Positions 8,219 to 49,060 of a DNA stretch of 64,000 nt are shown here, piece by piece. This DNA is from Henricia sp. BOLD:AAB3569. Taxonomy: Eukaryota; Echinodermata; Asteroidea; Spinulosida; Echinasteridae. The stretch's first letter is position 1. Every line of letters begins with the position of its first letter. Under the pieces are notes generated by a model that did not search any database, was not told the DNA's origin, and saw nothing but the letters and a program-made list of their open reading frames with translations. The translations under genes were made by a program, and so were the position numbers. The DNA is taken from positions 372,001 to 436,000 of the forward strand of contig JBBELK010000093.1 in NCBI GenBank assembly GCA_037783545.1, written 5' to 3'.

Positions 8219-9280
8219 ATGGATGGAGTGGTGAGATGTACGCTTATTCTCGCATCACTCTGCACATCTCTGCCGACACTTAACGCACAACGGACCGGCC
8301 AACTGTCTGCCTATCATATTGCAGCATTCCAAAACCCAGATCCATATTCTAAGCTGAATCATGTGCTTTTACACAATTCCAACATATATATTGGAGCTGG
8401 GAATTCACTCTACCGGCTGAATGAGCAGTTACTGCTTTGGGCAAACGTCAGTACGGAGGAAGATTGTACAAGTGATCAGGATGGGTGTCTCAACTATAAC
8501 AAAGTTCTCTTCGTGGACCCCACTAGAAATACACTGATAACCTGTGGGAGTGACAGTAAAGGGACTTGTCAGCAGAGACGCCTGGAGGAGCTGACGATAA
8601 TCTCTAGGAGTGATGTTGGGGTGTCTCCAGGCAGAGACAAAACCACTGTCAGTCTACTATCTCCTGGACTTAGAAATAGGGACTGGCTTTATGTAGCAAC
8701 CACATATAGTGCTGCAGGGACAGCAGTTGCACCAATTGCAAGACGAGATCTAGAAACGCCAGACAATAGATTGCTTTTTGCAGACAGTTCATCTATCATT
8801 ACTTTTAGTAGAGATTACCAAGGTCAACCATTTGACATCAACTATGTATATGTCTTTACTTCAAACGACTTCACATATTTCATCACTGCACAGCAACGGG
8901 AGCAGGCTAGACGAGACCCAGTATTTGTCTCCAAAGTGGTTCGCGTTTGCCAGACCAGTAGTAATTTAGATTCCTACACAGAGATCACCCTACAGTGTGG
9001 TAACGGATCCAATCTGTACAATCTAGCTCAAGCTGCGTACTTCGGAACAGCGGGACCAGCCTTAGCAGAATCACTAGGTATTGATCCAGGAGCTCCGATG
9101 CTGTTTGCAGTCTTTGCCAAGAATGTTGGCTCCACCAGTACACCTAGCGATAGCTCAGCCATGTGTGCATTCAGGATGGCTGAGATTGAGAATGCATTTG
9201 AGACAGCCGTTAGGAACTGCGTTCATGGGGGACCTGCTTATCAAGTATTTTATCTGCAAGGCAGCAGTTGCAATACATTT
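8219..9280 (+). CDS. Coding exon 1: signal peptide and most of the Sema domain
   Basis: 354 codons, ending phase 0 at GTAAGT. The start ATG has a strong context (GCCATGG) and opens a hydrophobic signal peptide with likely cleavage after LNA. The rest is Sema propeller (residues 24-354) with paired cysteines. One large exon holding the start codon and most of the Sema domain is also the structure of MET and plexin genes. The frame stays open past the donor to 9655, but that extension is AT-rich intron. Confidence 0.92.
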
Positions 9281-12200
9281 GTAAGTTTCTTTGTAATGTT
9301 CTTTTTAGTATATACTGACACTACATGTATAGAATTATATGTATATTATTATATTTATTTATTTTTATTTTATTTATTTAGTCCATTTATTTACCCAGGG
9401 TGCTCCCAAACAGTTTACAAAAAACTGGTTTTCATTGGGGTCCTGCATAGTAAATTCACAATCACAAACAAACTGGAATACAATACAACAACTACAACAT
9501 CAACAATCCACAATACATCAACACTCGCACAATTGGACAAAAATAATGGTTACAGAAGAACAACGTCACAAGACATATTATACATGCACGTGACACTTAA
9601 ATTTACGCTAATTACGGGAAGGGCGAAAAACCCGCAAAAACCCATTTTAAGATAACAAAAATGGGAAAATTCCCTTCCAACTTCAAAATTAAAGTTTAAT
9701 TTTATGGCAACCAAGTCATACGATTCTATAAATTAGCATTTCTCCTCGGAAGTTGATCATGTGAATATTATGTATATGTTTGGTGAAGTGCCGAATTTGA
9801 ATGACCTCAAAGAAGATATAGTTCTAAGGTGTGCACTAAGGCTGTTCCAGTATTCTTATATTCTTGAAGTCTTCTTATATTCTTGAAGTCTTCTTATATT
9901 CTTGGATTGCAGCTTAGGCCAAAAAAAGAACTATGTTTAGCGTTAGCGCGCGTCACTTTCAAAACTTTGCGTCAAAGGTTTTTCTTTTACTTATAGACAC
10001 GCACCGTCTGTTGAGTGTTTCGATTAAAAACATGCCTTCATTTCTTGGAATCCACTCACAACAAAAAGAAAAACGGAAAAAAAGCCTCGTCACCGCGTCA
10101 TTTTGGGAGACTTCAACTTACGCTAAACATAGTTCTTTTTTGGCCTTATACAATCCTTAAATTGCTTCACCTTTTTATACTGAAATACCTGCCTGTTTCA
10201 ATTTGCCTCCTGCAGACTTGGTGATTTCCAATATAGGCTATATAGTTTTGCAATCTGTGTATAGTTTTGGCAAAACTGTGCAAGCAGTTTTTCTTTTTGA
10301 TTCTGCTTGATTCTTTGCATTAATACATACTTTCACTTATTAGCAGAATCTCTAGGAATTGATCCAGATGCTCCTAATTAAGCTCCCTGCAATATTTGCA
10401 GAGATTGTTGGCCACACCAATATCCCCTGCGATACCTCAGCTTTGTATGCATTCAATGTGGTTACATTGATAATGGGTAATTCCCAAAATTCGGGGTCCA
10501 AAAGTGTGACATGCTTTTTAAGATTTCCAAGTGTTTTTAGTGATTGAAAGTGGTTTCCCAATAAAAAATAATTATTTTTATTTCAACAAATGCTACTTTA
10601 ATTTAATGTTTAGATGTAGATATGGCACCAAGGTTAATGGAAACTTATTCTACAGCCAATTTTCATTGGCGTAGGTATACCCGGGACACCAAACTTCTAT
10701 TCAATACCATGGAACAAATTATAAACCTTTATGGTCTTTTGTTTTGAATATTTTTCAGGAATCAGAGAACAAAATGTTCAAGAAAATGATGCTGCCCCCT
10801 ATAATCACAGGCCACAGTCCATCACTGAGAATTTGTGATCATAAGTGGTGATTTTTGAAGCAGAGAGTGTCGTACGTAACTGGGACACCAACATTTTGGA
10901 ACCCGAATTTTGGGAATTACCCTAATGCATTTTGTAACCGGAAGAATTGCGTTCAGCAGACGTAATCTGCACAGCATGTAGATATGCCCCCAATTAAGTA
11001 TTTACTTACACTGCATGTAGTGATTACATGCTTGGCAATGGAATCATTTGTATGCATTGATTTAAGAGGCGGATCTTTTATTTTTTAGAGAAACACGAGA
11101 ATTTGTGGCAAAAATACCATTTGTTAAAGGTAGAGTAAACGTGATTAGTAAACTGTTACAAAAGGCGTTATTTCCACTTGTGACTATAAAAGCCCATGTT
11201 GATAAAACTGCCGTGTGGAATTTTAAGCCAAATATATCTAGTAATACTGCAGAAAACTTGAAAAATCCATTCATGGTTTTTGTGTTGAGTTGAATGGTAA
11301 AAAGGTCTTTTGCAAAAGATTGTTTTAAAAAACCACCTTCAGCTGTTAATTTCTCACACAAAGTACCATTTTGGACATAAATAAATTCATGTGTTGTTTG
11401 ATAGCATTGTTATGGGATTTCCCGGTTATTTTAGCACTTATATCAAGCAAATTCCCAGAACGATACTTAATTAATTTCGTCCCCGAAGAGAGACGATCTC
11501 ACTTCTCAATTTGAATTTAGACAAGTCACCAATTGGAGTTCATTTGTTGTGCAGTATAATTCAAATTAACATGCGTTTTAATTCGTCCTGACTGCGTGGA
11601 ATTCGTCTAGTGCACAGTAAGAAATAATGGGTAAATTTTGCCAAACCATTTACCCAACGTTGGTTCAAATATCAACATGCCCATCTTTGGGGCGCAAAAT
11701 ACCCAACTGGTGTTGGGTAACAGCTTCACCCAACCCTTGGTATTGTATATATTTACAACTGTTGGTTAAATTTAATCATCCAACGTTTTTGGTAAATTTT
11801 AACAATCAACAGTTGTACACATTTGCGCAACTGTATTTTACCCAGGATTTTTTGCAGTGTGTGGTGATCGGCATTGGATTGAAAAAGTGAATTCGTGGTT
11901 CTTCATCCATTTTAGCACTTTGGTAAATTAAATTTAGATAGTGCATTCTCTACTCCATGAAAGCCTATACATGTTCAGGGTATCTTTGCCATTTCTTGTT
12001 AAAAGTTCGTTTAGCTGCCGATGCTGGAATTCAGAGAGGCAGATAAAACAAGGTTTTAAATGCGGATAGAAACAAAATGTGGACAGATTTTGTAACCGTA
12101 ACGATTGAAATTACTAGAAACGAAATGTAAAAACCAAAGTGCTAAAATTAATGAAAAAAGACGAATTCACTTTTCTAATACAATGCCGATCACCGCACAA

Positions 12201-15200
12201 GACGAAATCCACGCAATCAGGACGAAATAGAACGCATGTTAATTTAATTTATACTGCATAGCAAATGAAATCCATTGGTGACTTGTCTATAAATTCAAAT
12301 CGAGAAGTGAGCTCATCGCTGTTCGGGGACGAAATTAAAGTATCGTTCTGGGGAATTTGCTTGATATATGTGCTAAAATAACCAGGAAATCATATATTAA
12401 CTCTTTTAGTAAGATTTTTGTCAACTGATGGGAAAATGGGGTCACTAAACATGATGTAATCTAGCTTTAAGGCATATGTGATTGCCCAAAAGTTAAGACG
12501 GTGCCTGGTCAAGCACTAAAAATACTGACTCTTGAGTCATTTCTATATTCATTGTACGGATCTTCTCACTAAAAGATCATACTTATGAAGTCTTCTGTTT
12601 GGATGTATATACAATGCGCGGACATTGTATGCCTGCAGAAAATGGCAAATAATATCAGAAAGTACTGATTTTGTTTTACATTTGTAATATACCACTACGC
12701 TTTTTTGTATAAACTGATGTTCATTTGCGCCAGTTGTGTAGTTACCAGTCCATTCCGTTACTCTATCTTTAAATACGGCACGATGGGACTTCTGTAATTT
12801 TCTTACCCATTTGCCGTTCTATTTGGGCATCATTTAACCGTAAGTATACTTAAAAACGAAACGCAAGTCACTTGAAAGTCAGTTTTTTTTGGGTGTGCAT
12901 GGTGCATGTGTGGGTGTGTGCGTTATTAGTGGGTGCCAATTGCACTGATCAAACTGCTTGTGCTAAGCCAACTCTTGGAGGGCCACGGTTCAGCGGCATC
13001 AGCGCACACAAATTAAAGGCTTGGAATCGATTTGAGATAATCCCCTAGGTTCTATGAATGTGGCTATGGCTGGTAAAAGCCCCAAGTTTATTTCTAAATC
13101 ATTGGTTGGAACTCACAGATTCAGACAACCAAAATCATTTGTTTGGCGAATTGGGTATGCTACGATTTTCGGAATATAGGACCATGCGTGTGCTGTTGGC
13201 ATGCTACAAGGCATTATGCAAGCTGGAGGTGTTTTCAGACAGACAGCAGGCAAGGTAAGAGATTCAGTGATGCAAACATCGTGGATCAGAGCAGATGGGG
13301 AGGACCCAGCGTTACGGTGTGGTTGACTGGGTGTGCAACGCACAAACTGGTGTTTGTTGCAGGTAATCGCAATGTACTACGGACGAGATTTTAAAGGTCC
13401 GTGTCATTCGATTCCCTTTGTTTGAATAGTGGCGTGCCATCCCACAAGGATCTTTACAGCGGCTAGTCACCATGTAATGTCGCATCCTGGTTTGCTTTGC
13501 AGCCAAAGATAACATAAACTTTACATTTGTTTATTGTGGAATTTGAGGATCCAACTGTTTTCTTTTTTGCAGTCATATCACATAACATTGCTGTGCAACA
13601 CAGCAAGTACATGTATACATGTGTACATAAATTGCTCAAAATTCCATTTAGATTACACTGTTGACTGTTACTCTTAAATTTTGATGTAAATGATGGACAT
13701 TTTTAATTTCATTAAACTACATGTACTGGTATTTCTGAATAGTATTGACTCATGGAATTCATGAATCCAAAATTAGGGTAAAAACGTCTCGGATGTAACA
13801 GGGACACTGTCTCTCGGGTTAATAGAATTGCTGCACACGCATGGTTAAATGAAGTATTTTTATGTGTACATGTAAGTGCTGAACTTTAGGATCCAATTGT
13901 TTCCTTTTTGCAGCAAGGTCTAGATTACAGAGCATATCTGTGCAACACGGACGGTGCATACAAATATGCAAGAGGCAGTGACTCTGGTGGAGTTCCAGCA
14001 ATCCCATTGCTTCAGCTGGAAGGAACTCGCATGTCATCAATAGTAACCAGCATTGAGATGAATCACACAGTCGCTTTCATTGGCACATCACAGGGTGCAT
14101 TGCTGAAGGTGAGATTTATATCGAAAATTTCCATTTGTAACCGATTAACACGTAACCTTCTCATGTATTTTTGTTTCTCGTTCAGACTGAACACGGATTT
14201 TTGTAAATTTATACATGTAGAGCTTATTCAATTCTAAGATATACTGTTCACTTTTGTCGCAAATTGTTGCTTTCTGTAGAAAAATCACATTTTCTCCTTT
14301 AAAAAATGCATGCAGTTAGTGCACAAGATAACCATTCACGCATGTACGCAGCGTCCTCTGCCGTCACGCTTACGCACGGACCGCTCGCGCCTTAATTTTG
14401 TGCATTACTAATTTATGCAGTAATTTTATCATATATTTATCTCAGAAATGCAACATTTCCGAGTATATCTTATAATTGAATAAGCTATCGATTTCAATAT
14501 ATAAATTTACCAAAATCAGTGTTCAATCTGAACGAAAAAATACCCATTCCCAATGTGCCTTTTATATTTATTCCTGCATGAGGTAATTTTAAGCATGACC
14601 AAAATAATTGTGTCTATTGCATTAAACTAAGGTTCACATTGAGGATGGTGCAGCTGCCAGACATTACGAGACTGTTCAGCTAGCTAAACCATGCCCAGTA
14701 CTAACGGATATCAGCCTCAACGAACAGATGCAGCATATAAACATACTCACAGAACAACAGGTAATCTCCTTCATATAACTGTTGTCCGAAGAGTTTAAGA
14801 GTCAATTTCACCTTACATTTTTTTTCCAATCGCTTGCACTATAAACCCAACACGCGTCGAGAAATAATTTACACGAGCCTCTGAACTAAAAACATTGATG
14901 TAAACAAAACAAAACAAACCAAAAAAACATTGGATTCAAAATTCAAAACACATGGTTCAAAAGCACATCACACTTTGGCCAAATGTTCGCATGCACTTCC
15001 CCAATGAACAAACACTAGTGGCAATATGCCTACAACAAGAGAGGAAATGCTAACGCACAAAACTCAATGATGTATTTTTGAGAATGTGCTTCTTTCCATT
15101 TCTGTGGTCACTATCGTGCAATAAGCACAATTCTTATTTAGAGAATAAAACAGCTAAATCTTTCTATTCAATGAAATAATAGGAAAGTTATGCCGTAATG

Positions 15201-18200
15201 CTTCTGTATATATCTTGACATGCCAGTTACGGGATATCGACAGTCTCAAGTAGCGGATATACACTGCTAAGTAATGACAAAGTTCTGAGCCTGAATGGTA
15301 GTCTTTTAAAAACCCACGACATTACATAACAAAGAATTCTTTTTTTTTTTTAAACAATTGTACAACGGTCGATAACCTCAGTAAGATAATTGACATATCG
15401 TATAGGCCTATTTGTGACACACAATGGTGATTTGAAGCTGATTGAGATGTGTATACAAATTGTCATTGTTTAGAAAAAAACAACTTCACAAGTGAAAGGC
15501 CTACCATCCAGTTCACATTCTTTCCGATTTGAGTTCTGGCGTTTGTTCTCCTGAATCAAATTTGTATCAACTAGGGTGACACTAGGTCTTTTAAAAGGAA
15601 AAAAATCCCTTTTAGTTTCTTTCTCTTTACCTTTCTTTTCTGGATGTCCTTCAGATCCTGTAAGGCTTGTCATCTATGCATATTCATCTAAAAATATAAT
15701 TCAGTAATATATTGTTTTCGCTCGTGATAACTGATCGACTTCGTGTGTTGTTGGCATTTATTTGTGTGAGGTACGAACTATTTCAACTGGTACAAGCTTT
15801 CACTTTTTGAAAATACATGTAGTGTCATTTCATTTACAACATAAATGCACACAAAAGAGGTCTGTGTTATAGGTTTAATCGTTAAGTGGCTTGCATCGGT
15901 CGTCTTTAAGAATGTACTTTAATTGTTGCACATATTCCGCACGTTTGAGAACGGTGAGTGTTTGCATTCGAAAATTGTGACCAAAGAACCAATTGATATT
16001 TTAGGTCTGGTGATGTTGGGTGCTTTGCACAGACTGGGTTAATGCAATCTCGCGCTGCCAGAACAGGAGCTCTGTTAAAATTATCTTTCTGTGTAATGAG
16101 TACAGTTCTATATCCATCAGACGTACTGAAACTTTCCACTTTTTTGTGACACACATTAAGCGTTCTATAATCTTTGAAAACGGAAATTTCGTATACAGTG
16201 TGTCCAATTGTAATTTTGATGTGCAAATTATCAGCGTAACGTTTGTTAACTTAAGAATACATTGCACTGATAAGGAACAAATGTTGAACATAACATCTGC
16301 AGGTATGGTGCCTGATCATCATTGAAATGAAACAACCAAACCTGGGATAAGAGACAAATTTGAACTAGAGACCTCTGACTCACTAGGGAGACGCTCTACC
16401 AGCTGAGCTATAAGGCACGGTTGGTATACTCCCTGAGATTTTCCCTATGGACCCAATTCTTCTCTCCGTGTTGCATGGTTAAATGTCATTTTTTTTGGTA
16501 GTTTTTAAGATTGAGGGTGGAGAACTGCAACCAGTACAAAAGCTGCAACTCTTGTATTGGTGACGCTGGAGGACAAGATGGCGACCCGTACTGCGGATGG
16601 TGCACACTACAAAAGAGGTATTAAGACAACATGCTGCACGTGGGCCTTTACAAAATCACGGCGATAATATGTAACCTGTCACGACGAAATAAGCGTAAAG
16701 TCGGAATTTTGAAAAATTGGATATTGGTATTTTTAAATTCAGCAGAAAAAGAGCTTTGCAATGGTACATATTAAGGTAAAACTATTCCCCTAACACAACA
16801 CGATTGGAGAAGTGGTATAATCTTCAAACAAATCTTACAAATCTTAAAACAACATTTTCTACGAGTTACGAAGAAAGCTATCGTCAACATTTGTCTAAAA
16901 GTGATGTTTTTAATTGTTGGTTGACGCTAAAATTTGAATCAAATAAAATAAGAGTTATACTCTTTCTAAATATTAGAAAACCCTAAAATCGACCTCCTTC
17001 AATTTTGACTTTTAACCCGTCGTTATATAGGAAACAGCGGAGTGCGACTTTACGCTCATTTCGTCGTGACAACGGTCACATAACGTGTATGTTTTCATGT
17101 GCATTCCCGTTCAATGATGTATATAATGGGAAGGGGCCGGCAGTTCAGAGCGATCCAACCTGGTTATCTAGGAGTCGACGGATTTCGCACCAAACATGTA
17201 TAAAGTCAGGCAAAATACAAACATTGCGTTCAAACTCCAATCCCGCCGAACCGAATGTTGTGTCTATAAAAAAAATATCTATGAACCTCTTTTTGCCATA
17301 CAGGTGTACCAGACACAGTGAGTGTCCGTTGGCTTCTGTATCCAGTCGCTGGTTACCATACGATGCTGCACAATGCGTGGACATCAATCAGACAGACCCC
17401 AAGAACTTGGCAATAACAGATCCATCCCAAATGGTAACGTACAACGTCTTGACTTGATGACGCGTCAATCAAAGAACTACACCGTAGTCTACCAGTTTTC
17501 ATTAAAAAACGTAACATCAAAAAAGGGAAAATTATTGTGACCTTCCTATTACATACACAAACAATGTTTGAATATCATATTCTATACACGTACTGCGGTC
17601 ACTTTCACCAATTTTAACGTCTTTTATTTCTATCGGAATAAATTCTGTTTTCGTATCTAAATATTCCATCGGCACCATAATATAAAATACGGACTCTTCT
17701 AATTTCCGCTTTACCCATGTTTTTGGAAAGGATAGAAACGATTGCCTCTGTGTATAAAGACACTTTGAGTACAGTGATCGATTTTCAATCATTTACCAAC
17801 AGATCACACTGACAGTAGACCAGCTCCCAAACCTTAAGGAAGGAGAATCCTACAGCTGTCAATTCGATGACCTACCACGGTCTGCGGGAACGACCAACAG
17901 CAACACTATACAGTGTAGGACTCCAGATACGGGGGGTAGACCATCAAATCCACCAATGGGTAATTTATAACCTTTAATATTTGTGTCATTCATAATGATG
18001 TGCATGATGTGATTATATGTTGTTAGAAAGGCATCGCAGTTTTCTTTTTATCAATTTCTTCCGCTGAACTCAAGGGTAAAATGTCATATAGGCCTACTCT
18101 TTGCCATTTGAAAAATTGCTGTTTTGTAATTGCTTTGCAGAGGACCACGTTGGGATGCGGTTGAGTGTGTTTTCGTCCGAGACTAACATAAACTTCATAT

Positions 18201-21200
18201 CTGGAATTTTCAACTTCTATGATTGTTCCAGACACTCCTCGTAAGTCTTTCAATTAAACATGTCTTCGAGACGTATATAGACACATAATTCTGACTGTCA
18301 CGGTTTTTCACAAACAATTCGAGGGATACTTTGCATATGTACGACCGCGCCGCGCGCACGTAGAGGCGTATTGCGCGCGTTGTTTTTGACAAATGTGTTT
18401 GCAACAATGGGATGATTTCCTTCGAATCACAAAATGGCGCAGTATATACGCGATCGATTGCCGTCATGCGGTGCAACAAGTCAAATGGTTCAAAAGTGAA
18501 TACATTATTTGTACATCGTGTTTGGACTTTTAATTTGGCCGTGGTGTGTCTGGTGCTCAAAAAGGTTCAAATCCTAGCAGAATATATCTTTAACTCTACT
18601 TGCGGTACGTGTATTTCAAACTTTCATGATTCAAATAAACTGTCATGATTCAAATAAAGACGCACCATTCTTTTCATTATCTCATTTGCAAACATTAAAT
18701 GTTGAGATATTTCAGTGTACTGCGTGTTTTAGTTTTGGCCATATTATAAGCAGTCAGTGTGGAAAATATGGAACAGTTCTTTAGGAGATTCGTGATATGG
18801 AGCTGTAACCATTTCTTTTACCTTTATCGTAGGTGTACACCGTGTGTTACAAGCAACTGGGACTGTGATTGGTGTGTGTCCGACAACAGGTGCACCCACA
18901 GAAGTGAAGAGTGCAGTCAGGGAGACTACATCGTCACAGGAGATAATGTAATTCAAAGACGTCCTCGCTTCTTTCAAGGATTCATGCAATGGAATAGCGA
19001 AAATATTGAATGTATTGCAGTGTATGAAATTGTTAGTATAAATGAGCTTGCAGGGCGGATCCAGGAATTTTCGAGGGAGAGGTTTTGGCACCAGGGAGGG
19101 GTTTTGCCCATATTTATTTTTTGATGTCGGGGCAGGGAGGGGTTTTGACTCCCAAACCACCCCCTTTGGATATTAGGGCCTGGTTTAGATTGTCTTATCA
19201 TCAACAATGTATTTGCTGAGAAATCGTGTATCATGAATCATGCAAAGTTTCAGGAAAATAAGCACCGGTCCCAACTTGCAAAATAAACTTCCACTTTGTA
19301 CACATTTGCAGAATCCCGATGCCTCCACGATGCGAGGACAATCCTTCTGTCCACAGTTGCAATCCCAGAAGGGGGAGGTGCTTGTGCCTGTTGGTATTCC
19401 CAGTATTATCTCAGTCAATGCCAGCAACATTCCCGACCTAAGTCATCAGGTAAAACATTGCACATGTTTTTGCCATAGTTTTGTACTGGTCCAAGACAAA
19501 CACCTTGTGAGTTATGCTGAGGTACATGTACGTTACAAAGTTCAAATTGTAGAGAGTGGAAATGGTACAAACATTATTCCAATTAGAAATGGTGAAACAA
19601 TTATTGGTATAATAAAGGATTGATAAATGGTAATGACACATTATAGATAAATTCACTTAACACGTGTTTCGATCTCCAAGTGTAGTGTTTTCTTTTCCTG
19701 CTTCACACATAAAATGTTTTTCGTAAGTTTTGTTGGGGAGCAGATAGACTTACTTATGCACATTTATACACACATATAGACATAATTATTGTATGTACTA
19801 AATCGTTCCTTTTATTTTCGGTTTACAAAGCAGTACCAATGTTCCCTGAGTGTGGATGGTGATGAACAAACCACTTCAGCAACATTGATTTCAAATGATG
19901 TTATCCAGTGTGACAGTCGAATGGTACGTTGAGGATTGACGGGACGAATTCGTGTTTTTTTTTTTTATTAATGAGCACCGTAAACTGATGAACACTTTGA
20001 AGCATTCTAATAAAATGTATCGATACATTATAAGCTCCTGTTGGTTTTTCTCTTTTCCTTCCTTTCAAAGTACACATATGGCGCCAGAAAGCAGACGTTT
20101 GATGCGTTATTGAAGGTGGCTTGGAATGGCAACAAACAGCTGGACGATATTCATAACTTCATAGGTAAGTGACACGTTGAAAATCGATGACTGCTATACA
20201 ACGAGGTTATACATGTACATTTGCCACACTATTTATTATCTATATAATTTACTGTATTTTCTGAACTAACGTATAAAGCTACATGTACTTAAAATGTTTA
20301 TAGCCGAACAATGAGTAGCGAATGCAATATATTTGGACCATGTGATTTTTCTCCCATCCTACATTTCGTTATTTCATCATACCAAATAATATTATTATTA
20401 TAAGCAGTTGCGCAACATGCATACTTCATAAGAGAAATATTGGGCTCCTGAAAGGAAAATATGGAGCATGCCATTGTGCCTCATAGCGCAGATAATGAAA
20501 CAACCGCCCGTCTTATTATTATACCAGAGGTGTATAGAGTTATTTCGTATCCCATGTTTGGTTATTTTATTTCTACTGTGTAGCCACCATACTAGTTATA
20601 TTGCGTTTAAATTGTTTAGGCAGTTTATGTGTTTATTGAAACTAAAATCTTTCTGATTGTGTACTTTTCAGTCACACTTTATAAATGTGATGTTGATCGT
20701 CAAGACTGCAGTCGATGTCTGTCCAGTGAAACGGCAAGACCCGAGCTTGGGTGTCGGTGGTGCGGCAGCCGGTGTGCGTTCAAGGAGGATTCTGTGTGTA
20801 ACGCTGGGTCTCTGGATTCCAGTGATCCGTGTCCTGCTCCTCATCTGGAAACGGTAAGGCCTGGTTCTCGTTTTTAGAAACTGATATTTTGTTTTAAAAT
20901 GCAAGTATTTGATTTAGACTATATCATCAAATTGGTTGACGCCAGTGAATCTCAGTCAAGTAAAATCCGCCGATTGTTACATTAATCTGTAACAATGCAA
21001 TAAACGATGCACGTCAACGTTGTTTGACTAACAGTTCTGTGCTTTCAGATTTTAAAATATTGAAAGACGAAACGGCAGGTAATTGATCCTTGGTTCTTTT
21101 AATAAATAATTATTGAGTAAATATTGCTTAATTGATTGTTAAATACGGCATCAGGTGGATCCTCCCACTGGACCAATGGAAGGAAACACCACCATTGAAA

Positions 21201-42200: not shown

Positions 42201-42915
42201 TACAATATCAATAGGTGATCGGAATGAGTTCCGATCACCTAAAAAAGACAAAGAAATCGTACAATAGTAATAGGTGATCGGAATTAGTTCCGATCACCTA
42301 AAAAAAGACAAAGAACCAATACAATATCAATAGGTGATCGGAATGAGTTCCGATCACCTAATAAACGGAAGAAAAAAAAATCAAAACGAAAACAAAGGCT
42401 TTTTCGCCGCAAAGCGAAAAAGCAAAAACAAAAGACAAAGAAATCGTACGAGAGTAATAGATCACACGTACACGACAGCGCAATGCGCATTTTTTAATAA
42501 CCTTACTGACACTCAAGTGCAACAATGATAATATAGCTCTTTTACATAAATAGGCAAAATGAATATTCATGTTAATCGTTCGCATTTTGATTAAATGCCA
42601 GTATGAAATTGCAGTGAGCGTTTCACTGTACATCATCATGTAATTGTACAAACTTGAATGCACATGTACATTGTAAAACACGTAAAACCGACACTCGGTA
42701 CGGCGATAGAGCATTGTCAATGCAGTACATGACAAACTAGATCTTCCCTTTCATAAAAAAAGGATATTTGAAAGGTCACAATGCAGCGCTGGACCCAGCA
42801 AACTGTAGCTCATTATGTTGAGCAGCTGCAGGTAATTTATAGTGCCGTGATAATGGCAGCACAACTGTAAACAACCAATCGAAACATCGCCCTCACACGG
42901 TCCACACGGCACCTG

Positions 42916-42948
<33 letters not shown>

Positions 42949-45920
42949 AGGGGCGACGGCGACGGCGACGGAGGGGCGACGGCGACGGCGACGAAAAGGG
43001 CGACGGCACGACGGCACGACGCGACGGAACGAAGCACGCACAAATCACACAACCCCCAAAGCAAGGTCGACGCGACGGCACGACGCGACAGGCGACGGCA
43101 CGACGCGACGGGCGACGGTGCGGGCGACGGCACGACGCGACGGACGACGGCAGGCAAGGCACTGTACACAGGCAATGGGAAAAGACACGACGGCGACGGC
43201 GACGCGCCTACAGGCGTCGCCGTCGCCGTAGCCCCTGCGTCACCGTCGCCGTCGCCCCTGCGTCGCCGTCGCCGTCGCCCTTTGACGAGGCGACGCCATC
43301 TGTCGTAAATGGAATTCCATATCATTGGTTAACGGTTGTTTTGACAGAATACGGTGCTGTTTGAAAAATAGCAGATTTTCCGTACGTAGCCTTACCCAGT
43401 TGGTAAGTTCACAAACACGTCATACCTTTACAGAAAATATGTGAGGGATATATTGTGGTCTTCGTCAGTGAAAGTCATCAATTTGCAATTTGTAAGCTGC
43501 ATAATTCAAACTACCGTTGATTTCCTCAGTTGTAACATTACGTGTGATGTCGCCATAATTGCAAACAGGCCTAAAATTAGTACATACTGTAAACTACACA
43601 GGTACGACGTACAAACGTTTATGCTTGCAAACCGGCACGTACGCACCATTTGACCCGAGTAGTGAGCTCTGATTGGATATTATGTAAGATATGAATATTT
43701 ATGAGCACTCGGGTTTCGCATAAGTAATTGCGTCGGATTTCCAACGCAGTTATAAAGAAACACATAAGAAATCGAGTACATAAAGAACAAGGCTATGATC
43801 CAGCCTCGTCCGTGAAGTCAGGATTCAGACCAAGATATTATGGTAAGCAGACTATTTGGCAGTTGGCTACAATTCACCGCGTGGTGGCGCACTTTCGCTG
43901 CATAGCACACATATGCATAGCACACAGGCAAATCTTCACGGATTCACACAATTTCATAGCCTTGGACACAAGGCTACACGTGCCTTGAATTTCTGTATAC
44001 TATCCCTAAAAAGAACTAAAGTGATTCCCACAGCAATTCAATCTGACATTTCTTGTTTATGGGAGAATGTTGTGGTTAAGGGCTCTCTGCAGAAAACCCA
44101 TTTTGTTCGGCTTTCAACCTGATTGAACCTGCGTGGGTTAAACTGACTTCTGGAGCCACACTTTCAAACGGCCCTCGATCGGGGTGCACGAGCCCAGTAA
44201 GAGAGGTACATCAGGTATACACCCTTTGGCACTTATGGTGGAATTGCCTCAGCGAAATTTTAGGAAGGCTTGTGCATGTTATTCTACTTTTGGACCGTTT
44301 TATCGAATCTTGCATCACTTTTCGTGGCACTAAAAATCGCCCAATCTGCATGGGGCTGAATCATGCTTAACCCCTTGCGGATGGGTTTATCTTGCCGGAA
44401 AGTGGTCCAACAGTCACACGGTGTTCTGTTACACATGTAGGTAAGTTCAACTGCCAGGCTGCGGCTATGCTGCCGTCGTCTGATATGGTGCCAAGGAGTT
44501 CAGAAAAATGCACAACATTGTTTTTGTTGTCACTTTCACAAATACACATTGTGGGGTGAAAGAAAAATCAAATGGCTCTCATTGGATTTCGAACCCAAAA
44601 CCTCTGATAAGATGCCCTGTGGCGTACTCCCTCAGGTTTTGCTGTATAATATCCTGGGTTTCAACCAACACTGTCACCAGGAGGAACGACACTTGTTTGT
44701 TTAGGACAGTTCCCGCCGACGCAACTGATTATATTGTCACACTCAAAACAGTTACATGCATTCTGTTCTCTAGATGTTGCATGGAGGCTCACTATGGATG
44801 TTTCACAATATTTCCCTACTGAATGAAATTAATTTACACCATTCATGAACAGAAAAAGTGCCAATTTATGAGAAATATTTTCAATTTCTCCAGTGGTCGT
44901 ACGGTGTTCTCCTGTGGGAGCTGTTTTCCGGAGGTCGTCGGCCATATCCTGGGGTTCGTAACAGGGACGTGTACAATTTTCTCCAGCAAGGAAGACGCAT
45001 GGATCCGCCAGGATTATCTCCACCGAAACTGTACGTAAAGAATATGCTACCTGTACACATTACATGTTGTGCTTCGTTCTGTTAAAAGTAGCAACGAGGA
45101 CGTACATGTACCGGAAAAAGATATTCAGTACCACAGTACGTTAAAATTTGCAAGGCTGTCATTAAACACTGCGACCAAACTCGACCCTGCAGTCCTCTCA
45201 GTCGCTATTAAACACCGCTTCAAGAAAGTAAAATAAATTGGTAGCTTATGTGCGAATATCCGTCATTTGTTACGAATACAAAAATTTGTTCCCGAATCAC
45301 CCCGACAATTTTCAGGGCTTTCCAAACTTTTACGATCTTGCACAGAGCGAACTGAATCATCCCAAGGCAGCCAAAAACTATTCCCCGATTTACTGAAGAA
45401 TTGCTGTTTTCGCGGCGATTAGGCTTAAATTCGGGAATGGGTGAAAAATAAATGCCTGTATCTGCCAGGAATCTCCTGACAGTCGGATTAGGGACACCAA
45501 TACTGTCGCACGTGCATTTTTGAATGAAAATTATAATAAACCTTGTAGCATAAGATGTCTTATTTTTCGATATTTTTGTTCAGATCTGAAATCATGCAGC
45601 AGTGCTGGAAGGATTCGCCAAAGATACGATGCTCTTTCGGAGAGATAGTTAACGAGCTTGACCGTCTGGTCGCTGTGTTGGATGATGACTCGTCTCCAGG
45701 AGGGGGTTGGAACGCATCGAGTGAGGTTGACAGCCCAGCATCGATCTCTGGAGCCGCTTATTGCAACGAGCCTAGCTATCTCCAGCCAACTGTGGAATGT
45801 GCAACCAAGGGCGGCAGCCACCACATTCCAATGGAAGTCATCGGATGGGGTCAAGAAAAGGATGAAACAGTGGATGTTGATGAGCGACAGAAAATAGCCC
45901 AGTCTTATTTTTCTAACTGA
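8219..45920 (+). CDS. Sema/PSI/IPT receptor tyrosine kinase, plexin-like ectodomain, MET/TAM-like kinase (27 coding exons)
   Basis: Joining 27 exons gives 4962 nt, 1653 residues, with every junction in phase. Order: signal peptide 1-23, Sema propeller about 40-465, PSI1 about 470-515, atypical IPT about 520-620, PSI2 about 622-665, a second atypical IPT about 690-780, PSI3 about 782-832, four IPT/TIG domains about 837-1200, transmembrane helix about 1209-1234, juxtamembrane to 1305, kinase about 1306-1577, 75-residue tail. Catalytic features: glycine loop G1315-R-G-A-F-G1320, lysine K1341 in VAVK, helix-C E1358, HRDLAARN from 1433, DFG from 1453, twin activation-loop tyrosines Y1465-Y1466. 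It should sit in the plasma membrane and signal by ligand-driven autophosphorylation; the ligand is unknown. Kinase sequence resembles MET/RON and also TAM kinases, and I cannot separate these by eye. The three-PSI ectodomain is plexin order, and no plexin GAP domain is present. The tail lacks the paired YVxV docking motif of MET. Confidence 0.9.
9281..9840. other. Intron 1, AT-rich part
   Basis: TTTATT-rich and CAACA-rich low-complexity DNA with no other feature. Confidence 0.5.
9853..9904 (+). repeat. 19-bp tandem repeat, about 2.8 units
   Basis: Unit TCTTATATTCTTGAAGTCT. Confidence 0.85.
9914..10146. mobile_element. Small TIR element (MITE) in intron 1
   Basis: Ends AGGCCAAAAAAAGAACTATG and its near-perfect inverse (CATAGTTCTTTTTTGGCCT) over about 26 bp. 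There is no coding sequence. Confidence 0.7.
10338..10957 (+). pseudogene. Decayed copy of part of coding exon 1, split by a MITE
   Basis: 10338-10474 aligns with exon 1 at about 9060-9196 (shared words include 'gaattgatccag', 'ccaccaatatcccc' and 'gcattca'). After the element at 10475-10922 the alignment resumes with 'taatgcatttt' and 'attgcgttca', matching exon 1 to about 9227. The copy has in-frame stops and no useful splice sites, so it is a dead internal duplication and not an alternative exon. Confidence 0.75.
10475..10922. mobile_element. TIR element inserted in the decayed exon copy
   Basis: Ends GGGTAATTCCCAAAATTCGG and its inverse match over about 29 bp with one difference. TAAT is duplicated at 10471-10474 and 10923-10926. 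There is no coding sequence. It postdates the exon duplication. Confidence 0.8.
10958..11415. other. Intron 1, unassigned
   Basis: No gene, RNA or clear repeat. Confidence 0.4.
11416..12391. mobile_element. Long-TIR element with a nested insertion
   Basis: Arms of more than 200 bp pair outward from GATTTCCCGGTTATTTTAGC and its inverse GTGCTAAAATAACCAGGAAATC region. The left arm is interrupted at 11613-11859 by a second element; the uninterrupted right arm shows the empty site. There is no coding sequence. Confidence 0.75.
11613..11859. mobile_element. CACTGCAAA-ended element with iterated CCCAAC/GGTAAA core
   Basis: Its ends are CACAGTAAGAAATAATGGG and, inverted, CACTGCAAAAAATCCTGGG. GGGTAA, CCCAAC and GTTGGG recur inside in both orientations. 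It shares its terminal word and its layout with 112-462, but not its iterated motif. Confidence 0.65.
12392..13050. other. Intron 1, unassigned
   Basis: Nothing recognised. Confidence 0.4.
13060..13440 (+). pseudogene. Possible Tc1/mariner-type transposase fragment
   Basis: One frame reads [16 protein letters not shown] followed about 20 residues later by GN, resembling the DDE-domain signature of Tc1-like transposases (WGG.SVMVW ... GN). The stretch before it is out of frame and has no recognisable catalytic aspartates. This is a short decayed remnant, and the family call rests on this one motif. Confidence 0.4.
13546..13602 (+). pseudogene. Decayed copy of the intron 1/exon 2 junction
   Basis: AGGATCCAACTGTTTTC...TTTTTTGCAG followed by 'ctgtgcaacac' copies 13888-13943, which holds the real branch/pyrimidine tract, acceptor and first codons of exon 2. 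The copy lacks the bases that would keep exon 2 in frame. Confidence 0.7.
13914..14108 (+). CDS. Coding exon 2: Sema domain
   Basis: 65 codons (residues 355-419), phase 0 at both ends, between CTTTTTGCAG and GTGAGA. It ends with the Sema strand [15 protein letters not shown], typical of the last propeller blades. Confidence 0.92.
14160..14565. repeat. Inverted repeat in intron 2
   Basis: Arms of about 95 bp at 14160-14255 and 14455-14565, sharing 'cgttcagactgaacac' and 'gcttattcaatt' and their complements. It is probably a degenerate MITE. Confidence 0.65.
14632..14760 (+). CDS. Coding exon 3: end of the Sema domain
   Basis: 43 codons (residues 420-462), phase 0. It includes [18 protein letters not shown] and ends HINILTEQQ, which joins to FLRLRVENC of exon 4 to form the final Sema strand. 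Confidence 0.9.
14761..15699. other. Intron 3, first part
   Basis: AT-rich with no supported feature. An exon-like stretch near 15232 was rejected. Confidence 0.5.
15700..16010 (+). repeat. Dispersed repeat, copy 1 (partner 59873-60180)
   Basis: About 300 bp colinear with 59873-60180, including 'gtgataactgatcgacttcg' and 'ggcttgcat'. Noncoding. Confidence 0.7.
16340..16480 (-). mobile_element. tRNA-derived SINE fragment
   Basis: On the minus strand GCCTTATAGCTCAGCTGG carries a good polymerase III A box and is followed by a Thr-like anticodon loop (CTAGTGA) and a weak B box (TAGTTCAAATT). The loop and T arm are degenerate, so this is not a working tRNA. Flanking sequence resembles 44540-44660. 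Confidence 0.6.
16502..16617 (+). CDS. Coding exon 4: Sema end and PSI1
   Basis: Residues 463-501, starting phase 0 after TTTGGTAG and ending phase 2 at GTATTA. The PSI cysteines are clear: [11 protein letters not shown] then DPYCGWC. An acceptor 8 bases further in (TTTTTAAG) would break the frame. Confidence 0.9.
16676..17080. mobile_element. TIR element in intron 4
   Basis: TGTCACGACGAAATAAGCGT and its inverse bound about 400 bp, with about 26 bp paired and no coding sequence. Confidence 0.7.
17304..17433 (+). CDS. Coding exon 5: end of PSI1
   Basis: Residues 501-544, with CTRHSECP completing the PSI fold and CVDINQTDP following. Acceptor TACAG, donor GTAACG, ends phase 0. Confidence 0.9.
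17803..17959 (+). CDS. Coding exon 6: atypical IPT-like domain
   Basis: Residues 545-597. [19 protein letters not shown] has the pattern that links PSI1 to PSI2 in plexins. Ends phase 1 at GTAATT. Confidence 0.88.
18141..18240 (+). CDS. Coding exon 7: start of PSI2
   Basis: Residues 597-630, ending [11 protein letters not shown], the first PSI2 cysteine. Donor GTAAGT. Confidence 0.88.
18833..18947 (+). CDS. Coding exon 8: PSI2
   Basis: Residues 630-668, [20 protein letters not shown], the cysteine/tryptophan core of a second PSI module, ending phase 0. Confidence 0.9.
19051..19182 (+). mobile_element. Fragment of a hAT-like CAGGGGCGGATCC element
   Basis: CAGGGCGGATCCAGGAATTTT matches the inverse right end of 55390-55650, and the internal 'accagggaggggttttgcc' is shared. 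The far terminus is not clean. Confidence 0.65.
19312..19449 (+). CDS. Coding exon 9: second atypical IPT
   Basis: Residues 669-714, 46 codons, phase 0 at both ends, with [19 protein letters not shown] as a plexin-like linker strand. Confidence 0.88.
19834..19923 (+). CDS. Coding exon 10: second atypical IPT
   Basis: Residues 715-744, [18 protein letters not shown]. The acceptor is a tandem AAGCAG, so one extra glutamine could be included by NAGNAG splicing. Ends phase 0. Confidence 0.87.
20071..20164 (+). CDS. Coding exon 11: second atypical IPT end
   Basis: Residues 745-776, [16 protein letters not shown], a common last strand before PSI3 in plexins. Ends phase 1 at GTAAGT. Confidence 0.87.
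20165..20671. other. Intron 11
   Basis: No repeat or gene seen. Confidence 0.4.
20672..20853 (+). CDS. Coding exon 12: PSI3
   Basis: Residues 776-836. [16 protein letters not shown] then [18 protein letters not shown] is a full third PSI module. Ends phase 0 at GTAAGG. Confidence 0.92.
21155..21309 (+). CDS. Coding exon 13: IPT/TIG domain
   Basis: Residues 837-888, [18 protein letters not shown], the canonical start of an IPT domain, with NIGRRFQDI and a PCDL cysteine. Ends phase 2. Confidence 0.92.
21765..21891 (+). CDS. Coding exon 14: IPT domain end
   Basis: Residues 888-930, [18 protein letters not shown] to VSFTYT, the last strand of the domain. Ends phase 0 at GTATAA. Confidence 0.9.
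21902..22166. mobile_element. TIR element with C-rich core
   Basis: ACCTTTTAATTGCCCCCC and its inverse near 22150 bound a core that starts with a run of about 25 C and repeats 'aaatccccaccc' words. Confidence 0.55.
22185..22487 (-). mobile_element. tRNA-derived SINE
   Basis: On the minus strand the head reads AATCAGGTTGGCGCAGCGG (A box) then CTGGTTCGAATCCCGTC (B box, repeated once more 20 bp on). A conserved-looking middle (TTTTCCCCGTACACG, CTTCCTCCCACC) and an unrelated tail follow. Length of about 300 bp fits a full SINE. Confidence 0.75.
22697..23870. mobile_element. Tc1-type nonautonomous element, disrupted
   Basis: Its left 130 bp match 26359-26490 and its right 90 bp match the end of the copy at 28095-28189. 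The middle is replaced by the THAP-type element at 22825-23779. Confidence 0.65.
22825..23779 (+). mobile_element. THAP-type TTAA element, copy 1 of 3
   Basis: Starts TTAAAGAGGAAGAATCCCCC and ends GGGGGATTCTAGCTGTTTAA. A reading frame near 23142 begins [19 protein letters not shown], like the N-terminus of a THAP zinc-finger domain (MP..C....C..), then stops after about 38 codons. It is a degenerate, nonautonomous copy. The other copies are at 45925 and 52435. Confidence 0.7.
23871..24417. other. Intron 14, unassigned
   Basis: No family recognised. Confidence 0.4.
24420..24943. mobile_element. TIR element with TA target site
   Basis: GAGAGGTTTCGCACCGTCAC and its inverse pair over about 40 bp, flanked by TA on both sides. 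Runs of 'acggatacg' lie just inside each end. No transposase. It contains the first copy of the octamer repeat (24690-24800). Confidence 0.7.
25612..25635. repeat. Perfect 22-bp palindrome
   Basis: GACGGGCAGAATTCTGCCCG(TC). A second palindromic pair, 'cgatccctatat', lies just downstream at 25648-25690. Confidence 0.8.
25718..25870 (+). repeat. Octamer-rich repeat, five ATGCAAAT sites
   Basis: ATGCAAAT occurs at 25769, 25793, 25824, 25844 and 25856, mostly after GTGCCCAAA. The first 110 bp are a direct copy of 24690-24800, which has two more octamers. ATGCAAAT is the established POU/Oct binding octamer. Whether it acts as an enhancer here is unknown. Confidence 0.75.
26159..26304 (+). CDS. 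Coding exon 15: second IPT domain
   Basis: Residues 931-979, [19 protein letters not shown]. Acceptor CTCCAG, donor GTGAGT, ends phase 2. Confidence 0.92.
26504..28095. mobile_element. Nested element, ACACCCAACACAAAAAG ends
   Basis: TIRs of about 100 bp starting TACACCCAACACAAAAAG at 26504 and ending in the inverse at 28095. They share AGTTCCCG and AAAAAGCGACGTGTG. No protein family is seen inside. Confidence 0.75.
27013..27838. mobile_element. Nested TTAA element, AAAGG..CACCGGC ends
   Basis: AAAGGTAACACCGGC on the left and GCCGGTGTGTTCCTTT on the right, with TTAA at 27013-27016 and 27835-27838. Near the right end there is a hairpin around 'ccagaatttgggttc' next to two TCACGTGAC-like words. 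Related copies are at 3475-4140 and 59560-59815. Confidence 0.75.
28295..28453 (+). CDS. Coding exon 16: second IPT end, third IPT start
   Basis: Residues 979-1032, [11 protein letters not shown] and then [17 protein letters not shown], the junction of two IPT domains. Ends phase 2. Confidence 0.87.
28712..28808 (+). CDS. Coding exon 17: third IPT
   Basis: Residues 1032-1064, [16 protein letters not shown], the conserved glycine-rich IPT start. Ends phase 0 at GTAAGC. Confidence 0.9.
28831..29154. mobile_element. hAT-like element, CAGGCCCGTAACCAG ends
   Basis: Ends CAGGCCCGTAACCAG and CTGGTTACGGGCCTG with TCACT duplicated at 28831-28835 and 29150-29154. A 5-bp duplication fits the hAT5 group. 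Confidence 0.8.
29478..29675 (+). CDS. Coding exon 18: third IPT end
   Basis: Residues 1065-1130, 66 codons, [16 protein letters not shown] then [16 protein letters not shown], the plexin-like spacer before the last IPT. Ends phase 0. Confidence 0.9.
30009..30185 (+). CDS. Coding exon 19: fourth IPT
   Basis: Residues 1131-1189, [18 protein letters not shown] with paired cysteines. Ends phase 0 at GTAAGA. Confidence 0.9.
30420..30630 (+). CDS. Coding exon 20: transmembrane segment
   Basis: Residues 1190-1260. The helix runs [15 protein letters not shown] to [10 protein letters not shown] (about 1209-1234), followed by the basic stop-transfer KYNKQKQ and a heptad-like [18 protein letters not shown]. 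Ends phase 1. Confidence 0.93.
30834..31004 (+). CDS. Coding exon 21: juxtamembrane and start of kinase
   Basis: Residues 1260-1317. It carries RRRHSLD (S1271), a basophilic-kinase consensus, and [13 protein letters not shown], the first half of the glycine loop. The intron cuts the loop itself, phase 1. Confidence 0.92.
31348..31431 (+). CDS. Coding exon 22: ATP-binding loop and catalytic lysine
   Basis: Residues 1317-1345, [11 protein letters not shown] to VAVKTIQ (K1341). A short 84-nt exon, phase 1 at both ends, so skipping it would keep the frame and delete the ATP-binding site. Confidence 0.93.
31619..31800 (+). CDS. Coding exon 23: helix C and hinge
   Basis: Residues 1345-1405, [18 protein letters not shown] with the helix-C glutamate E1358, and the hinge [15 protein letters not shown]. 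Similar wording occurs in MET and TAM kinases. Confidence 0.93.
32052..32161 (+). CDS. Coding exon 24: catalytic loop
   Basis: Residues 1406-1442, [20 protein letters not shown] then NCM. The intron splits the methionine codon. Confidence 0.94.
32359..32521 (+). CDS. Coding exon 25: DFG and activation loop
   Basis: Residues 1442-1496, [20 protein letters not shown], then [10 protein letters not shown]. The acceptor ATACAAG has a weak pyrimidine tract, but the phase and protein join are exact. Read-through at the donor would stop two codons later. Confidence 0.93.
32575..32735 (+). repeat. Dispersed repeat 'A', copy 1
   Basis: Shares 'tgtgtgaatccgtgaag', 'gcgaaagtgcgcca' and 'gtagccaactgc' with 38698-38955 (same strand), 43725-43975 and 58740-58902 (opposite strand). 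Confidence 0.75.
32800..33330 (+). repeat. GGCGAC-rich foldback-like repeat 'B', copy 1
   Basis: Runs of GGCGAC on the left and GTCGCC on the right flank a unique middle ('ttttcccattgcctgtgtac', 'gctttgggggttgtgtg'). The inverse copy is at 42830-43320. Arg/Asp-repeat open frames in all six phases are artefacts of the hexamer. Short-repeat arms facing each other recall foldback elements. Confidence 0.75.
33478..33643. mobile_element. Palindromic 166-bp MITE, copy 1 of 3
   Basis: TAGACTACTGAAGTATGACG and its inverse pair through most of the element, including GTTGCCATGG and TGGGTCTA. Copies: 48837-49003 and 55012-55180. Confidence 0.8.
33660..34080 (+). repeat. GGCTGGG minisatellite, first block
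   Basis: Imperfect iteration of 'tttgggctgggctgg' and 'ggggtggcttcaggctg'. The block resumes at 34555 after an insertion. Confidence 0.75.
34083..34553. mobile_element. TIR element inside the minisatellite
   Basis: CCCCCTTTACACCGAGCTACG and its inverse TACGACCG..TGTAAAGGGG region bound 470 bp rich in 'gagcgacc'. There is no coding sequence. Confidence 0.7.
34555..34910 (+). repeat. GGCTGGG minisatellite, second block, with a nested MITE
   Basis: Continuation of 33660-34080. 34627-34812 is a separate insertion with ends CAGCACGATATGTGGCA and TGCCACATATCGTGCTG. Confidence 0.7.
35267..35425. repeat. CACTTCGCCC short-repeat inverted block
   Basis: Iterated 'ttcgccccaaa' in the left part and 'gggcgaaatggtt' in the right part form an imperfect inverted array. 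Confidence 0.7.
35633..35781. mobile_element. Small MITE in intron 25
   Basis: TTTCCTTTGTTACGCAGTGG and its inverse pair over about 50 bp around a short centre. Confidence 0.65.
35782..37250. other. Intron 25, largely unassigned
   Basis: Minus-strand frames around 36350-36883 read coding-like stretches (for example [15 protein letters not shown]) but match no family I know and are interrupted. They may be a decayed transposon gene. Confidence 0.3.
37258..38170. mobile_element. TIR element with three CCTCTCCAG repeats
   Basis: GGGCTATTTCACAATAAGTG and its inverse (ends at 38166), with ATCT duplicated on both sides. CCTCTCCAG recurs near 37665, 37820 and 37962 in divergent 140-155-bp units. 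Confidence 0.75.
38290..38590 (-). pseudogene. Fossil integrase-like transposon fragment
   Basis: The minus strand encodes [17 protein letters not shown] followed by [14 protein letters not shown], resembling the C-terminal part of integrase-core proteins common in animal mobile elements (..EWN.HR.R....DVLYFLP...). It is a broken remnant. The parent family cannot be fixed from this piece. Confidence 0.45.
38698..38955 (+). repeat. Dispersed repeat 'A', copy 2
   Basis: The longest copy, extending to 'ggaaatccgacgcaattac'. It is the inverse of 43725-43975. Confidence 0.75.
38960..41960. repeat. Satellite array of about 350-bp units with CRE palindromes
   Basis: Units start near 39049, 39402, 39750, 40568, 40912, 41267, 41568 and 41919. 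Each carries one or two TGACGTCA sites, then 'tatacatgctggtgaaa', 'tttgacctcaaattgacc' and 'ctgccaaatacgaag'. I count about 13 TGACGTCA. Several units keep an antisense open frame of about 60-100 codons. 39870-40550 is a rearranged part. Confidence 0.85.
41995..42365. repeat. 60-bp tandem array with a hairpin in every unit
   Basis: Six units. Each ends in AGGTGATCGGAATGAGTTCC followed by GATCACCT, a 12-bp stem with a TGAG loop, preceded by 'aaagacaaagaacc'. Unit 3 has two stem changes. The spacing segments are themselves repeats, so it is not a CRISPR array. Confidence 0.9.
42830..43320 (-). repeat. GGCGAC-rich repeat 'B', copy 2 (inverted)
   Basis: Reverse complement of 32800-33330 with small indels in the hexamer runs. 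Confidence 0.75.
43725..43975 (-). repeat. Dispersed repeat 'A', copy 3 (inverted)
   Basis: Reverse complement of 38698-38955. Confidence 0.75.
43976..44539. other. Intron 25, unassigned
   Basis: Nothing recognised. Confidence 0.4.
44540..44660 (-). mobile_element. Second degenerate tRNA-derived SINE fragment
   Basis: On the minus strand GGGTTCGAAATCC is a B box. The upstream part resembles 16340-16480 ('gtactccctcagg'). Confidence 0.45.
44894..45030 (+). CDS. Coding exon 26: kinase C-lobe
   Basis: Residues 1497-1542, [20 protein letters not shown] then NFLQQGRRM. Acceptor TTTCTCCAG, donor GTACGT, ends phase 2. It joins exon 25 as DV|WSYG across 12.4 kb. Confidence 0.94.
45031..45583. other. 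Intron 26
   Basis: No repeat recognised. An AATAAA near 45447 is intronic. Confidence 0.5.
45584..45920 (+). CDS. Coding exon 27: kinase end, tail and stop
   Basis: Residues 1542-1653 and TGA at 45918. [20 protein letters not shown] is the last kinase helix; the usual RPSF is RCSF here. The acidic, serine-rich tail has two possible phosphotyrosine sites (SYLQP, SYFSN) and no MET-type docking pair. Confidence 0.93.
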
Positions 45921-48462: not shown

Positions 48463-49060
48463 AACAGAAATATTTTACACAGAAAGACTTGCTAAATTTT
48501 GAAAACAACTGGTGGTACGAATTGCTTACGATTGGAGACAGTTTGATGAGAAAACGTACAGTAATTATTTAGAAATATTTTACACAGAAAGACTTGATCA
48601 ATTTTGAAAACAACTGGGGGTACGAATTGCTTACGATTGGAGACAGTTTGATGAGAAAACGTACAGTAATTATTTAGAAATATTTTACACAGAAATACTT
48701 GATCAATTTTGAAAACAACTGGGGGTACGAATTGCTTACGATTGGAGACAGTTTGATGAGAAAACGTACAGTAATTATTTAGAAATATTTTACACAGAAA
48801 GACTTGATCAATTTTGAAAACAACTAGAGGTACAAATAGAGTACTAAAGTAAAAACGTCACCCTTTGTGTGTTGCCATGGTTACAGGGTCTACACTAAAA
48901 CCAGTGAACTTTTCCCCTACGCTTTAGCAATGGACGTTTCAGATTACCAGCGAATGTTTAGACCCAATTACCATGGCAACTGACGTCACACTTTAGTAGT
49001 ATATTGCTTACGATTGGAGACAGTTTGATAATAAAACGTACAGTAAATTACTACACAAAT
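48463..49060 (+). repeat. 102-bp tandem repeat, about four units, split by a MITE
   Basis: The unit contains 'gaaatattttacacagaaag' and 'cgattggagacagtttgatg'. Units 2 and 3 are nearly identical. The last unit is split by 48837-49003. Confidence 0.9.
48837..49003. mobile_element. Palindromic MITE, copy 2 of 3
   Basis: Same family as 33478-33643, inserted at a TA within the 102-bp array, which gives a clean empty site. Confidence 0.8.

Follow-up and report, generated by a model that had tools for sequence, protein, structure and literature searches.

The window, meaning the whole 64,000-nucleotide stretch of DNA analysed here (C93:372001-436000), holds a predicted gene on the plus strand at 8219-45920, which we confirm on sequence grounds as one apparently intact gene. 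A dynamic programming model, subsequently edited by hand, gives 28 exons, 27 GT-AG introns and a product of 1679 aa; all 27 exon junctions are phase-consistent with intact splice sites, there are no internal stops, and the open reading frame ends at 45920. An earlier note on this DNA had described a single gene of 27 exons and 1653 aa with 26 phase-consistent junctions; the single gene and the agreement in phase hold, but the counts do not. The difference fits a 25-aa exon at 13180-13254, which the 27-exon model probably lacks. This exon is intact in a tandem copy at C93:465k. In the retrieved part of that copy, 15 of exons 1-16 were recovered with all splice sites kept, no stops, and length differences that are always multiples of three; the retrieved stretch gave no match to exon 16.

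Exon 1 (8219-9280) encodes a signal peptide, recognised by eye, and most of the Sema domain (aa 1-354), which continues through exons 2 (13180-13254, aa 355-379) and 3 (13914-14108) and ends in exon 4 (14632-14760). PSI1 occupies exon 5 (16502-16617; Pfam PSI at aa 495-542) and ends in exon 6 (17304-17433), where IPT1 starts; IPT1 covers exon 7 (17803-17959; TIG_plexin at aa 558-648) and ends in exon 8 (18141-18240). PSI2 lies in exon 9 (18833-18947), IPT2 in exons 10 (19312-19449; TIG_2 at aa 715-805), 11 (19831-19923) and 12 (20071-20164), and PSI3 in exon 13 (20672-20853). IPT3 spans exons 14 (21155-21309) and 15 (21765-21891), and IPT4 exons 16 (26159-26304) and 17 (28295-28453). The weak IPT5 is encoded by exon 18 (28712-28808) and exon 19 (29478-29675), the latter also starting IPT6, which is likewise weak and membrane-proximal (exon 20, 30009-30185). 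Exon 21 (30420-30630) carries the transmembrane (TM) segment, placed by eye, with juxtamembrane sequence, and ends in phase 1. Exon 22 (30834-31004) adds further juxtamembrane sequence and the kinase start, exon 23 (31348-31431) the Gly loop and VAVK, exon 24 (31619-31800) alpha-C and the hinge, exon 25 (32052-32161) the catalytic loop HRDLAARN, exon 26 (32359-32521) DFG and the YY activation loop, and exon 27 (44894-45030) the C-lobe; exon 28 (45584-45920) holds the kinase end, the tail and the stop. Exons 1-12 are backed by the model and by copy C93:465k, with Pfam adding exons 1, 5-7, 9 and 10, and exons 13-28 by the model, with Pfam matches for exons 13, 14, 16-18, 20 and 22.

The longest introns are intron 15 (4.3 kb) and intron 26 (12.4 kb). 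Intron 26 contains inverted arms at 32625-33168 and 42952-43912 (313 nt 97%, 117 nt 96% and 67 nt 94% complementary), which lie about 9.8-11 kb apart, consist partly of GGCGAC units, and are perhaps a fold-back or mobile insert. Elsewhere in the window, a tandem repeat of 105-bp units (3.5 copies with 97% matches) lies within a minus-strand open frame at 48466-48837, and a tandem array with a 53-bp unit at 60315-60825. No Rfam family matched the window at the gathering threshold.

Domain layout and identity of the product

Pfam searches of the whole product and of its pieces, with the TM segment placed by eye, give the order Sema, three PSI, six IPT (two weak), TM and tyrosine kinase. The families stand in plexin order: Sema, PF01437 PSI (two stretches), TIG_plexin, PSI_PlexinA-B, TIG_2 and TIG (four stretches). 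On the whole product, PSI_PlexinA-B is above its cut-off at aa 656-682, and the tyrosine kinase profile matches at 9e-90. PSI_Plexin-B at aa 807-835 scores 17.5 bits in the whole product and 21.1 bits as a piece against a cut-off of 27 bits; this third PSI is sub-threshold, yet it lies in the expected place and aligns, its cysteines lining up with those of Plexin-A4. With the TIG profile (cut-off 20.9 bits), IPT3 and IPT4 as pieces score 40.7 and 35.1 bits, while IPT5 and IPT6 score 17.7 and 17.3 bits, below the cut-off, with their positions and alignment holding. Among solved structures, Plexin-A4 aligns over product aa 41-1117 (E 1.3e-125), and the printed part of this alignment takes in all three PSI. 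The Plexin_cytopl GAP domain is absent from the product's Pfam families, and no Plexin_cytopl row falls inside the window.

The kinase is closest to MET (282 bits), followed by RON (270) and MER (237), once an EGFR construct that ranks first by E and contains the kinase twice (167 bits each) is set aside. By eye, the catalytic motifs (21 residues) and the activation-loop YY are present, and the C-terminal tail bears a 10-residue motif. A YxN sequence can serve as a Grb2 docking site. The Pfam layout of this receptor does not fit the truncated MET-type ectodomain, which has a single PSI and four IPT.

A plexin-order ectodomain on an intact kinase is what the earlier note had proposed, and Pfam and the Plexin-A4 and MET alignments bear this out; the profile search for Sema, PSI, TIG and kinase domains that it suggested found more than one PSI, the third sub-threshold. 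The earlier note knew of no described receptor with this layout, but one had been reported in 2019: Met-LP, which joins a Met-like kinase to a full plexin ectodomain and occurs in the annelid Capitella, the mollusc Aplysia and the sea star Acanthaster (PMC6374515, in excerpt). This description rules out a categorically new receptor. With its complete plexin ectodomain and MET-like intracellular kinase, the predicted product is a Met-LP receptor tyrosine kinase, a layout known since 2019. According to the excerpted text of the same paper, A. planci has four Met-LPs, eleven plexins and one Met, a Plexin-B gene adjoins a Met-LP gene, and Met-LPs are polyphyletic on a Sema+PSI tree, those of A. 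planci grouping with its own Plexin-Bs (PMC6374515). In our Sema-exon tree, which covers one genome, the head of the window Met-LP falls together with heads of GAP-tailed plexins from that genome. No true MET orthologue was recognised with the window kinase (best 150 of 340 candidates) or the human MET kinase (best 146 of 364 candidates) as query, the letters of some of these rows being read. Judging by motifs, we take one of the kinases (L029) to be ROR-like, another on C482 (L090) to be ABL-like, and the kinase fragments L078-L084 not to be MET-like.

Copies of the gene and related plexins

We searched 740.7 Mb of genome in 2104 contigs. Exon 1 returned 23 rows, namely 20 Sema exons and three rows that belong to a single broken copy (C93:48k). 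Heads and tails were paired by order and strand in all copies except the window gene and, partly, the C311 plexin, and the copy counts are lower bounds. At least 12 copies are kinase-tailed (eight on C93, two on C311, and one each on C861 and C84), and at least five GAP-tailed plexins, paired to Plexin_cytopl exons, have related heads (three on C861 and one each on C311 and C34); three Sema exons are unpaired (C93:212k, C861:207k and C84:379k). Part of C311 may represent the alternative haplotype of C93, in which case the kinase-tailed count is 10. Two further Plexin_cytopl sets with near-equal rows, at C84:260-274k (minus) and C1480:74-91k (plus), have no Sema exon assigned; judging by position, the C84 set could have its head in the Sema exon C84:379k (minus), which lies upstream at a distance of about 105 kb.

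Every one of the 12 kinase copies has its TM exon on the strand of kinase exon 24 and upstream of it; the distance is 0.9-1.0 kb in 11 copies and 1.9 kb in C93:627k. Kinase exons 24-26 are open in all 12, the stops listed in several kinase rows being due to matches that run into introns. Copy C93:274k has one TAA in its matched Sema stretch, yet on later reading a 441-aa open frame covers the exon. The kinase regions of C93:522k and C311:765k are 99.9% identical with introns included, and the Sema exons of the two genes 90.6%.

Several other features were seen in and around these copies. Intron 1 of the window gene contains a partial copy of Sema exon 1 (10340-10475) with about 71-76% DNA identity to the Sema exons of other copies, and similar relics occur in other plus-strand copies. 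The broken copy at C93:47625-48483 is a Sema exon split into three rows (L053, L061, L064), and in the copy at C93:474713-498320 (L034-L037) exons 6 and 7 are separated by about 23.6 kb more than in the window gene. There are two kinds of 5' end (L048 versus L046 and L042): some copies and the C311 plexin start with MDGQIQTMLLL, others with another 10-residue sequence, and the 5' flanks of the two kinds do not align with each other. On contig C955 (L038-L040), COX1 occurs three times at a spacing of 16,221 bases, hence as mitochondrial units in tandem, which are probably an assembly artefact. The echinoderm code reads best on the mitochondrial contig, where the order is 12S, 16S, ND2, ND1, tRNA cluster and COX1, with 16S, ND2 and ND1 on the minus strand; the names ND1 and ND2 are our presumed assignments. 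The positions of ND1 and 16S are interchanged in asteroids relative to echinoids and holothuroids (PMC7947835, in excerpt). We accordingly read the animal as probably a sea star.

Heads and tails differ in history

The GAP-tailed plexin on C311 carries the window gene's head through IPT3. Its Sema exon has 91% DNA identity to that of the window gene and 89.7-93.0% to the six nearest Met-LP exons, and the stretch from its 5' flank through the Sema exon into the intron matches Met-LP C93:353k at 88.7% over 3156 bp. Eight rows fall on parts of exons 3, 5-9, 13 and 14 at 61-88% aa identity, and exons 14 and 15 are 96% and 84% identical to the window gene in DNA, exon 15 being the last close one. 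Beyond it, exons 16, 17, 18 and 20 have 55, 49, 31 and 33% aa identity, with exon 18 placed by position and phase (E 0.36). A plexin-like TM exon follows, and further on, on the same strand, come the listed Plexin_cytopl (GAP) exons. The change-over lies within one 1.4-kb intron (C311:599.9-601.3k) and could be a misassembly. The phases read by eye at exons 15-21, which cover all but the 3' end of exon 19, agree between the two genes, and the TM exon of each ends in phase 1; hence GAP and kinase exons could swap in frame. The C84 copy is the reverse case, with a different head and a similar tail: its Sema exon has only 30% aa identity (29.6%) to the window gene, whereas exons 13-14 are 87-91% and the kinase region 85-87% identical in DNA, introns included.

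Separate trees of heads and kinases, as the earlier note had proposed, were run within this one genome, with no other animal. The Sema-exon tree has 20 rows (12 kinase-linked, five GAP-linked and three unpaired), and in it the kinase-tailed and GAP-tailed heads interleave. A single clade of GAP-linked heads is rejected (AU p=1e-5, or 8e-8 without C861:149k), as is a single kinase-linked clade (p 5e-6). Met-LP C93:627k and the C34 plexin form a pair (support 100/99), the C861 plexins are intermixed with Met-LP C861:237k (97/92, or 100/100 when the long branch C861:149k is removed), and the C311 plexin falls inside the C93/C311 Met-LP clade (98/99), where the finer forks are weak. The kinase tree has little resolution, and neither tested grouping is rejected by it (p-AU 0.14 and 0.066); taken alone, its conflict is not significant.

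We also compared uncorrected synonymous differences between the Sema exon and kinase exons 24-26, where the kinase stretch has about 103 synonymous sites. Copies C93:142k and C93:274k differ by 0.235 in Sema and 0.010 in the kinase (one change in 103 sites), a 24-fold contrast. The window gene differs by 0.779 in Sema and 0.127 in the kinase from C84, and by 0.670 and 0.205 from C861; the old copy C93:627k serves as a control, with 0.742 and 0.766. The contrast is reversed between C93:353k and C311:694k (Sema 0.079, kinase 0.145), and is only 1- to 3-fold in several C93 pairs. Pooled Sema dN/dS is 0.51, which does not support positive selection on Sema, and kinase dN/dS is mostly 0.02-0.2, reaching 0.58 at one or two counted changes. 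At nonsynonymous sites of exons 24-26, 11 of the 12 copies differ by at most 3.1%, and C93:627k by 12-14%.

Origin and possible meaning of the mosaics

Given the discordance between heads and tails, module exchange in tandem arrays is the best reading of these data: the window gene is probably a Met-LP gene in arrays where heads and tails were exchanged by recombination. Unequal crossing-over or gene conversion within the arrays would be the simplest source of the mosaics, and similar heads would thereby be wired to either a kinase or a plexin tail. As for the deeper origin, the interleaved heads, in line with the grouping of A. planci Met-LPs and Plexin-Bs in the excerpted 2019 Sema+PSI tree (PMC6374515), and the phase-1 TM exon before the kinase lean towards a lineage-level join of a plexin head and a MET-type kinase. 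The earlier note had offered both an ancestral-like form and a lineage-specific fusion; the interleaved heads favour the fusion, and on trees confined to this one genome the ancestral form is the less probable.

If heads simply evolved fast and kinases slowly, each gene could have a single history with no exchange. The pooled Sema dN/dS, well above most kinase values, would fit this, but the discordance extends to synonymous sites and introns: the C84 kinase region keeps its 85-87% DNA identity against a saturated Sema exon, the C93:142k and C93:274k pair shows its 24-fold contrast, and the ratio of about 1.0 for C93:627k, against all others, is expected when both modules are saturated. We therefore regard this single-history reading as improbable. 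Independent capture of a kinase by separate plexins fits the four places that kinase-linked heads occupy in the tree (C93/C311, C861, C84, and C93:627k beside the C34 plexin). It nevertheless seems unlikely, if conceivable, since the near-identity of 11 of the 12 kinases at nonsynonymous sites suggests that one kinase source spread; the more divergent C93:627k kinase could be older or separate.

A plexin-MET intermediate retained from early bilaterians would explain the occurrence of Met-LPs in Capitella, Aplysia and Acanthaster, but the 2019 head tree, as excerpted, makes Met-LPs polyphyletic (PMC6374515), and in our trees, which cover one genome, heads group with plexins of that genome; we find this retention quite unlikely. 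Last, the long introns 15 and 26 and a model built from genome sequence alone might suggest an ectodomain gene and a kinase gene misread as one. Phase and splice-site agreement at every junction and the TM exon adjoining the kinase in every kinase copy speak against such an artefact, and we hold it to be very improbable.

Under the preferred reading of exchange within arrays, a semaphorin-like ligand would pair two plexin-type heads, the paired kinases would phosphorylate one another at the activation-loop YY, and tail tyrosines would dock SH2 adaptors, while neighbouring plexins with similar heads would respond through GAP. More tentatively, the arrays may form a paired-receptor system in which ligand-binding heads keep moving between GAP tails, associated with adhesion release and repulsion, and MET kinase tails, associated with growth and migration. 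One ligand could then be read in opposite ways by ever-new pairs of head and tail. Paired receptors such as CD300A/CD300C also carry similar heads on different tails (PMC12447643, in excerpt). This likeness is an analogy only: their domains are unrelated to those of the window receptor, and a shared ligand, opposed signals or an immune role would be purely hypothetical here. A starfish proteome is reported to include plexin-A4 and semaphorin-1A in coelomocytes, a result that has no bearing on Met-LP (PMC13409769, in excerpt).

While the odd layout is settled as Met-LP, the array of at least 12 copies and the related heads on ordinary plexins are less expected. If one animal carries semaphorin-receptor heads of close similarity on two kinds of signalling tail, Met-LP would offer a test bed for changes of output within a receptor family, and for the question of whether recombination, rather than repeated fusion, spread a MET-type kinase among plexins. 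The window receptor shares with plexins its ectodomain order, the long Plexin-A4 similarity and, with the C311 plexin, the phases of exons 15-21, but has a tyrosine kinase where plexins have the Plexin_cytopl GAP. With MET and RON, its nearest and next-nearest kinases, it has Sema, PSI and IPT parts in common, although MET has one PSI and four IPT (PMC6374515, in excerpt) against three and six here. Our literature search found no account of array mosaicism of Met-LP/plexin heads and tails, and the 2019 account, as excerpted, contains neither close head sharing across GAP and kinase tails nor head/tail discordance (PMC6374515). With the Met-LPs of that account, the gene shares the plexin ectodomain with a MET-like kinase, the occurrence in a sea star and a plexin gene (Plexin-B in that account) near a Met-LP gene, but kinase-tailed copies number at least 12 in this genome compared with four in A. 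planci (PMC6374515).
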